In this document: positions 8,914 to 13,075 of the stretch, in pieces
Layout: the number at the start of each line of letters is the position of its first letter
Position numbering within the stretch: the first letter of the stretch is position 1
NCBI RefSeq assembly: GCF_000264995.1
Contig: NW_006767433.1
Span: 3,774,209 to 3,838,208 of the forward strand
Length of the DNA: 64,000 bases
Reading direction: 5' to 3'
DNA from: Punctularia strigosozonata HHB-11173 SS5
Taxonomy: Eukaryota; Basidiomycota; Agaricomycetes; Corticiales; Punctulariaceae
Position numbers and translations under genes: made by a program
Notes under the pieces: model-generated
What the model saw: only the letters and a program-made list of their open reading frames with translations
What the model was told of the DNA's origin: nothing
Database searches by the model: none

Positions 8914-10069
8914 TCAATCAAGAGACCCGGTGCCCTCGCCACGATCTCCACCAACGATTCGCTCAGATTTAGCTTCACACCTGACTAAGTTGCGTATACG
9001 ATCTAGGAGGTGTGAAAGGGACACGCTGATACCGCCTGTGGTCTCCGCGGCAGCAACGACTGCATGTTCGACATCGGAGCGTCGCATACGTGGTCCCCAG
9101 ATACTTTCCTGGAATTCGCAAGATGTCAGGTTTGGTGAGATTGCCAGTGGTGCGGCTTGCGTACATGATATACGTCAACAAGTCTCATCTCGACGAGGGA
9201 AGGCATTGGCAGAGCAATGGTGGCAGCTATGGCTGCAGGCGGTAGAAATACCACTTGGCCCAGATACACCGTTTTAAGGCGTGCCAGAGAAGGAAACAGC
9301 GGGCGATATAAAGCGTTGCCATCGGTGTCCCTAAAAGGGAACAAGGTTCCGGTGAAGGAGATGTTCGTCAACTTTAGATGCACCAGATTCGACCACGATG
9401 CCATCGCGAGTGTCACGCCGTATGCCGCATTAGGTACGATCTGTGGCAAAGGTGCAGGGGCGAACATCGTCAAACAATAGGTTCTAACCCACCGACGCAG
9501 AGAAATGGTGCTCCGGATCGGGACCTGTCCATACAAACGTCCTTGGGCTAACAGGAGATCTTCAGATTCGGCGTAAGGGGTAAAAGTAGGAGAAGACATC
9601 CTCACTTTGCATACGATAAGGCGTAGAAGATGGTAAGATATTCCGCTCGTTGGAGAGAGTGCATGCAGAAGAACAAGGTGTTGAGGGAAAGCTGGCTCGC
9701 AGCCCGATGCAGAGGGTCTGAGGACGGCTCATTCCCCCCGACCAAAGGAGGCAAACCACGAAACCCTGGGACGGTGCCGACCAAGCGGCGTAGCAAACTT
9801 GCTAACCAAGTAAAGGTTTGGGCTTGGGGTATACGTCCGGCGAAGTTCAGGGCGATCGTCTTCGGTGTGCATCGGGGGGATGCAAGGGTCTCTGATAGCT
9901 TCTGAAGCTGGTTTGCAGATACGAGGATCAGTCTTCCGTAAAGGAACTGTTCGGCCAGTGAGTGAAACAGGTGATTGACGCAAAGAATATCGGCTGGTCG
10001 AGGGTGCACATTGACGGCGAGATACACAATTTCGTTGATTAGTTCGTGAGGGAGATCGAGGAGCTCCAT
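8914..10069 (-). CDS. F-box-like protein
   Basis: The start at 10069 gives MELLDLPHELINEIVYLAV, a clear F-box-type N-terminus, which in this group typically binds Skp1 in SCF ubiquitin ligases. The rest is an LRR-like or degenerate hydrophobic body (NLVHLKLTNISFTGTLF, LARLKTVYLGQVVFLPP, LVEMRLVDVYH) typical of the large Agaricomycete F-box families, whose targets are mostly unknown. Introns are likely around 9590-9620 and 9120-9180, and the last exon ends GEGTGSLD. The neighbouring PEX39-like gene is divergent, with 118 bp between the start codons. The exon joins in the middle are less certain than the two ends. Confidence 0.7.
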
Positions 10070-10187
10070 TATTGTCGCCCCGCTGCGTTATCAACCTCTC
10101 GCGACGTTGCCAAGACGGAATACAAAGCACAGCCACCAACTTGTCCGTTTATACCTTCACCCTAAGCCTCCGCTCGAGCTCCTGCCA
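10070..10187. promoter_or_regulatory. Short divergent promoter region (F-box gene / PEX39-like gene)
   Basis: 118 bp between two divergent start codons. No specific element was recognised; the role is inferred from position. Confidence 0.4.
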
Positions 10188-10783
10188 ATGACTGGAAGTG
10201 ATGACCGCCTGAGCGCAAGCGATTCCATTAGCAAAGAGGCGCTTGAACTGTACAGCAAACACTCCTTCTCGTCTGATCAGGCATATCAAGTATTGTGCGC
10301 TTGCCTCAGTAATGAACGGGTTCTCAACGGTGATTGAAGCAAGGAGTTGCAAGCGTCATTGCAAGCGGCACCTTAGAGGGCAAATCTGACGCCGAGCAAG
10401 ACGAAATTCTTAGGAAATCCCGGGTATTTTTCTTCAATCGGTGAGTTATTGCAACTCCATCCGATCGCTGGTCGCTGAAGTGGGCCGCGCTTCAGTACAT
10501 ATGGCACCACCTTGACCGTGGAGGAAGTCGCGCTTCTAGAGCGGGAGGATATCGTGCCCGCGCAGATTCCACAAGAGGCCCCACCGGCATTGTCGTTCGC
10601 GGAATTGAAGGCGCTAATCGAGCAGGGGGAGCTGGACCAGATACCGAACAACAGGAGGATACCGGAAGGTATTCATGTGAGTGACGATGGTCATGCAAGC
10701 TCCTCTCATATGCAGAACATATGCAGATGGAGGCGCCGAGCGAGTCGCGGGCGCCCGTGCGCAAGAAGCCTTGGGAGAATTGA
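10188..10783 (+). CDS. PEX39: PEX39-like peroxin with C-terminal KPWE motif
   Basis: Four exons join without a stop: 10188-10289, 10340-10440, 10496-10676 and 10727-10783 (441 bases, 146 residues), all with GT-AG introns of 50-55 bases. The protein starts MTGSDDRLSASDS, has a helical N-terminal part, a stretch FFFNRTYGTTLTVEEVALL, a core SFAELKALIEQGELDQIPNN followed by IPEGIH, and ends RAPVRKKPWEN. The order (a small helical FxELxxLIxxG...IP core, then a C-terminal KPWE) matches the fungal/human family (yeast Yjr012c, human C6orf226) recently named PEX39, where KPWE helps PEX7 import PTS2 proteins into peroxisomes. The small size fits. The family match is from recognised motifs, not from an alignment, and the start could lie slightly elsewhere. 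Confidence 0.72.
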
Positions 10784-11299: not shown

Positions 11300-13075
11300 A
11301 TGTCTCCCAAGGTCACCAAGATCTGCTGTAGTGCGTAGACAAGCTGTTTGCTTTGCCATTACGACTGAAGACCGGAACGCGTTCCAGTCGGTGCTGGCTA
11401 CGTCGGTGAGACCGCCAACATATAACAGCACCGGGGCGGCTTGCTTACCCCGTTGTTTTGCAGGCGGCCCTACTTGCGCTGTTATTGCGCTCAAGTGCCC
11501 GCACATCACCGTCACCATCGTTGATCTCAACCAGGCCCGCATCGATGCTTGGAACAGCCCCAACTTTGATCTCCCAATCTACGAACCTGGTTTGGAAGGT
11601 GTCGTTCGCCAGGCTCGCGGACGCAACCTGTTTTTCTCCACGGACGTAGACAAGGGAATCAAGGAGGCGGATCTTATCTTCGTTAGCGTCAACACGCCCA
11701 CCAAGAAGAGTGGTGTTGGCGCTGGCTTCGCGGCCGACCTCAAGTACGTACCTTCTCCGACTGTTACATGCGTGTCTCTTGAAATGCAATTGGCATTGAT
11801 ATATTTGTTGTTAACATGATCACTGACGCGTTCTGATAGCTACGTTGAACTCGCCACCCGCCGTATCGCCGCCGTCGCGGAGTCTTCCAAGATCGTGGTC
11901 GAGAAGTCGACTGTCCCTTGCCGCACCGCAGAGTCCATGAGGACAATCCTTGAAGCGAACTCCAAGCCTGGATGCCACTTCGACATTTTGTCTAACCCTG
12001 AGTTCCTTGCTGAGGGCACGGCTATCGAGGATTTGCTCAAGCCCGATCGTGTTCTCATCGGCTCCTTACAGACCGCCGAGGGAAAGGCAGCTTGTGCGGC
12101 TCTCAGCGAAGTTTATGGAAACTGGGTGCCGTGCGCCATCATTTATCTTGAGGGCGTAGAATCTTTACTGACAGGCTGCTAGTAAGGACCGCATCCTGAC
12201 GGTCGGCCTCTGGTCGTCCGAACTTTCGAAGCTGGCTGCCAATGCCATGCTCGCTCAACGCATATCCTCCATCAATGCCCTCTCCGCTATTTGCGAGGCA
12301 ACTGGCGCGAACATCGATGAGGTTGCGAATGCTGTTGGCAAAGACTCGCGTGTCGGTCCCAAGTTTTTGCGTGCTTCGGTCGGATTCGGTGGTTCCTGCT
12401 TCCAGAAGGACATCCTCAATCTCGTCTACCTCAGCGAGAGCCTGCACCTTCCAGAGGTCGCTGCTTACTGGAGACAGGTCGTAGACATGAATGAGTATCA
12501 GAAGCGTCGCTTTGCCAAACGGGTTGTCGACACCCTCTTCAATACCATCACCGGCAAGGTACGCATGCTGTCCGTGCAGTTCACCGGTGACTAACTATCT
12601 TCTCCAGCGCATCGCCGTCCTCGGCTTCGCCTTTAAGGCAGACACCGGAGACACTCGCGAGTCGGCGTCCATCAGCCTAATCAGGGACTTTGTTGCTGAG
12701 AAGGCCTATGTCACTGTCTACGACCCGAAGGTTACAGAGGAGCAGATCTGGCTAGACTTGGCAGAAGCGCTGTCGCCGACACCTCTTGAGAGCAGTGAGT
12801 TGCCGTGTTGACGCACGCCTTTCTCCAGCATTAAATCGTTCCTAGTCCAGAAGCAGGTCACCATCGTGCACTCTGCCCTGGAGGCTTGCAAGAAATCCGA
12901 GGCCGTCGTGATCGCCACGGAATGGAAAGAATTCCGTGATATCGCTTGGCAAGAGGTCTATGATAGCATGAACAAGCCCGCGTTCGTCTTCGATGGTCGC
13001 CTCCTCGTAGACGCCGACGCCCTTCGTAAGATCGGCTTCAGCGTGACCACTATCGGTCGCGGAGAGAGGCTTTAG
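11300..13075 (+). CDS. ugd1: UDP-glucose 6-dehydrogenase
   Basis: NAD-dependent four-electron oxidation of UDP-glucose to UDP-glucuronate, the precursor of UDP-xylose and glucuronic acid polymers (in basidiomycetes, capsule and wall glycans). The start gives [10 protein letters not shown], joined through an 18-base microexon (11388-11405) to the Rossmann motif [15 protein letters not shown]. Further family blocks are [42 protein letters not shown], the catalytic cysteine block [12 protein letters not shown], the lid [13 protein letters not shown] and the C-terminal NAD domain ending TIGRGERL at 13075. At least six introns of about 50-80 bases are inferred. All expected catalytic features are present, and nothing suggests truncation. 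Confidence 0.95.

Follow-up and report, generated by a model that had tools for sequence, protein, structure and literature searches.

The question raised by the small spliced gene at positions 10188-10783 of the 64,000-nt stretch of Punctularia strigosozonata DNA analysed here (hereafter, the window) is whether it encodes the peroxin PEX39. This protein, Yjr012c in yeast and C6ORF226 in human, was named in 2025 papers, the experimental systems of which were yeast, human and frog extract. According to the available portions of PMC12339391, PEX39 carries a DUF5572 domain with (R/K)PWE at its C-terminal end, and in opisthokonts it is a protein of its own, while in other lineages it is joined to PEX14. 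Most fungal orthologues have an extra region, termed X, outside DUF5572, while the species named there as being devoid of PTS2 import have no PEX39 (PMC12339391, same portions). PEX39 binds PEX7 mainly via RPWE and draws it out of the PEX13 phase; together with an amphipathic helix, it also promotes the binding of PTS2 cargo, as stated in the excerpted text of PMC12173945. A literature search for DUF5572 returned no match besides PMC12339391; in the same collection, which consists mostly of open-access papers, searches combining PEX39 with basidiomycetes, or using KPWE-domain terms, returned none, and PEX39 combined with Ustilago returned one review. At least three papers other than PMC12339391 and PMC12173945 mention PEX39 in connection with peroxisomes.

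Scripted splicing of the four exons listed in Table 1 rendered a product of 146 residues, open throughout, with RKKPWEN at its C-terminus. The stretch SFAELKALIEQGEL begins at residue 101, and IP elements are found at residues 117 (IPNN) and 123 (IPEGI). The coordinates, the four exons, the product length, the core, the IP element and the C-terminal ending given in the initial annotation are all present in the sequence. A likely start of translation can be read from the frames. That of exon 2 lacks an ATG and opens just behind a stop at 10331-10333, and that of exon 3 has no usable in-frame ATG, so that an upstream spliced exon is required; since the ATG at 10188 is the sole one in its stop-to-stop frame (10050-10337), it is the natural start. 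For annotation purposes, this provides a model of a small gene with four exons.

Table 1. Exons, introns and KPWE codons of the gene model, in window coordinates
Feature	Position	Strand	Description
Exon 1	10188..10289	+	Residues 1-34, MTGSDDRL...SDQAYQ; based on splice enumeration
Intron 1	10290..10339	+	50 nt, GTATTG...GAAG; weak sites
Exon 2	10340..10440	+	QGVASVIASGTL...VFFFNR
Intron 2	10441..10495	+	55 nt, GTGAGT...TTCAG
Exon 3	10496..10676	+	KPWE-domain core; predicted helix FAELKALIE at protein residues 102-110
Intron 3	10677..10726	+	50 nt, GTGAGT...TGCAG
Exon 4	10727..10783	+	C-terminal tail, KPWE, stop TGA
KPWE codons	10766..10777	+	Protein residues 142-145

The surroundings of the gene are as follows. 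An open frame at 7378-8739 matches the ArfGap profile over its C-terminal portion, at 20.8 bits and thus under the cut-off of 28.7, and continues into a Q/N/P-rich tail. A divergent open frame at 9602-10087 (minus strand), containing MELLDLPHELINEIVYLAV, looks F-box-like by eye and has no Pfam match at E 0.01; some 118 bases (10070-10187) lie between its first ATG and that of the gene under study, and could form a shared promoter. Downstream, on the same strand, a UDP-glucose dehydrogenase gene extends over 11300-12811 (the start, about 11300, was placed by eye); its three UDPG_MGDP_dh domains, as recognised by Pfam, are spread over three frames.

When the 146-residue product was compared with Pfam, the sole matching family was PF17733 (KPWE_dom), with a score of 61.6 bits (E 7.5e-17) against a curated cut-off of 27 bits. 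The match spans product residues 97-145 and positions 1-47 of the 48 in the profile, and the domain closes with the expected (R/K)PWE. We take PF17733 to be the former DUF5572. The initial annotation had described a PEX39-like peroxin and proposed a profile search as a check; that search did not come back empty, and the score obtained bears the description out. The exon 3 frame read on into intron 3, without exon 4, reached 34.1 bits, which is also above the cut-off; the rise on joining exon 4 supports the junction between exons 3 and 4, not the exact acceptor. Two of the many possible splice forms were scored, the second being a 158-residue alternative with different junctions at introns 1 and 3, which gave 49.3 bits. 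A scan of the 33.6-Mb genome with the PF17733 profile returned a single match, that of the exon 3 frame. Comparison of the 146-residue product with solved structures rendered nothing meaningful (one chain, 7oa7, E 1.8).

Judged from its sequence, the gene very probably encodes the PEX39 orthologue of P. strigosozonata. As in S. cerevisiae Yjr012c and human C6ORF226, a PF17733 domain is present in which a predicted helix precedes (R/K)PWE, and the product is small and free-standing, with no other Pfam family; in terms of gene content, PEX7 and a putative PTS2-type cargo gene co-occur with it, as with PEX39. It differs in having KPWE instead of the yeast RPWE, in the single residue behind the motif and in the 96 residues ahead of the domain, which may include the fungal region X. 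It is conceivable, although rather unlikely, that the core and the KPWE are those of PEX39 while exons 1 and 2 are mis-modelled, the true gene having a different first intron, a different start or additional 5′ sequence. The sites of intron 1 are weak, an alternative intron removing 10309-10343 likewise leaves the frame open, and a Pfam search gave no match to residues 1-96 at a threshold as lax as E 1. Against this, the need of the exon 2 and exon 3 frames for an upstream exon, and the lone ATG in the frame that provides it, favour the model in Table 1, and the region X of most fungal orthologues, as presented in the available portions of PMC12339391, fits an N-terminus of this kind.

The KPWE motif is not exclusive to PEX39. 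PEX13 bears it too, at its N-terminus, and the KPWE of PEX13 and that of the present product are predicted to occupy the same PEX7 site (according to the accessible parts of PMC12173945 and PMC12339391). Pfam, moreover, terms PF17733 a 'PEX14-like KPWE domain', and a domain of this type is common to the product and to the PEX14 with a fused KPWE domain that occurs outside opisthokonts. That the locus should be a fragment or pseudogene of PEX13 or PEX14 is nevertheless highly improbable: its spliced frame is intact, and a Pfam search of the product found neither Peroxin-13_N nor Pex14_N. The PEX13 of this genome is a separate gene located elsewhere, detected as the one PF04088 match (143 bits); the first Met of its open frame starts MVSPPKPWERAG, with its own N-terminal KPWE. 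Pex14_N has two matches in the genome (46.5 and 35.9 bits), which also lie elsewhere, in separate genes; neither has a PF17733 match, in contrast to a fused PEX14. As a side observation, one of these two genes may be PEX14 and the other, as a guess, might encode a PEX14/17- or PEX33-like protein.

The motif [RK]PWE occurs once in the six frames of the window, and a DNA pattern for KPWE-x-stop was found once in the genome (reversed-pattern control: 0). From the base composition of the window, however, KPWE-x-stop would be expected 1.77 times per genome, and as many as 1673 chains of up to three GT-AG introns, of 40-120 bases each, lead from the ATG at 10188 to the KPWE ending. Such an ending is therefore not rare on its own, and the case for PEX39 rests on the PF17733 domain score. 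With that score, and with the exon 3 frame alone exceeding the cut-off, a chance open frame that happens to end in KPWE can practically be dismissed.

Yeast Pex7, used as a query, rendered six matches in the genome. Three are adjoining pieces, 42-53% identical to the query, that make up the PEX7 locus at C5:337443-338513 (minus strand); the three outside this locus are weaker (25-32% identical). When a hand-joined middle part of this PEX7 was compared with solved structures, the first was the yeast PTS2 receptor 3w15 (164 bits; next chain, 113.7). The segment YDVAWSEIHENQ retains a glutamate that we take, by mapping onto the human sequence, to be the equivalent of human PEX7 E77. In human PEX7, E77 is needed for binding both PEX39 and PEX13 (PMC12339391, available portions). 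The residue facing yeast R117 is a lysine in the alignment.

Candidate cargo was sought among thiolases, of which 11 domain pieces are present in the genome. The hand-joined core of the thiolase gene at C1:2661840 had as its best solved relative 2iik, the human peroxisomal 3-ketoacyl-CoA thiolase. An upstream ATG at C1:2661257 starts MERIKQLTSHL, which fits the PTS2 consensus [R/K]-[L/V/I]-X5-[H/Q]-[L/A] quoted in the accessible text of PMC9133605 and fails a longer consensus at one position. This longer consensus found nothing on the forward strand of five thiolase loci, and only one match, in an unrelated frame, on both strands of nine loci. A looser PTS2 pattern, applied to part of eight loci, gave four matches: RIKQLTSHL at the thiolase start and three that do not lie at one. 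A second thiolase, at C5:27706-27996 (minus strand), has the N-terminus MAAISNRISQLTGLG, which is PTS2-like without the H/Q-L/A end.

Four matches to yeast Pex5 were obtained, three in two C3 loci and one weak, the loci being assigned as PEX5-like by this one-way match. In the locus at C3:2180410, the stretch NPKFKNSQFLGMMRQL lies upstream of the TPR pieces, and PEX18_PEX21_C (PF25098) gave sub-threshold scores of 17.8 bits with a 482-residue frame and 20.7 bits with a 117-residue piece (cut-off, 25). A six-frame genome scan with PF25098, in which no control gave a signal, returned no match. The putative PEX18/21-like box in this locus fits Pex5b, given as the PTS2 co-receptor of Ustilago maydis in the accessible text of PMC9133605, as well as the Pex5/Pex20 fusion protein that occurs in basidiomycetes according to an excerpt of PMC3764329. 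With Pex5a and Pex5b, U. maydis likewise has two such proteins (PMC9133605, same text), and the pair of PEX5-like loci, of which one has the putative PEX18/21-like box, agrees with a basidiomycete origin. PEX7, PEX13 with its KPWE, the PEX5-like gene with its sub-threshold match to a PEX7-binding box, and the thiolase with a PTS2-like start together lend support, at the gene level, to the PTS2 pathway inferred in the initial annotation; alongside PEX39, the genome has a putative gene set for PTS2 import.

The helix predicted upstream of the motif comes from modelling exon 3 by itself, from a single sequence (mean pLDDT 67.8, pTM 0.33); the blocks that hold the helix have mean pLDDT values of 83-85. 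The 14-residue SFAELKALIEQGEL was not above its shuffles in amphipathicity (10601 of 20000 reached its hydrophobic moment), and FAELKALIEQG has the third highest 11-residue hydrophobic moment in the product.

A mechanism can be carried over from what has been published on yeast and human PEX39. The KPWE at the C-terminus of PEX39 would dock on the side of the PEX7 propeller to which the PEX13 KPWE also binds, and this binding would pull recycled PEX7 from the PEX13 conduit. A short helix around FAELKALIEQ would cover the opposite face of PEX7 and stabilise bound PTS2 cargo, a PEX5-type co-receptor would then displace this helix and, on re-entry, the KPWE of PEX13 would displace that of PEX39. 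From the gene content and the published work on U. maydis, we tentatively propose that PEX39 may pass PEX7 on to a co-receptor of the PEX5 type, namely a long PEX5 bearing a PEX18/21-like box; this would be animal-like, in contrast to the separate PEX18/20/21 of yeasts. More speculatively, the extra N-terminal region of the fungal PEX39 may have a role adapted to that PEX5. The two parts taken together are a plausible idea, held with somewhat less than even confidence.

The gene described here adds one more instance of a known protein and leaves the existing knowledge of the family as it was. A fungus that combines a free-standing PEX39 with an animal-like PEX5 co-receptor would serve well as an intermediate in which to ask what in PEX39 is tied to the co-receptor.
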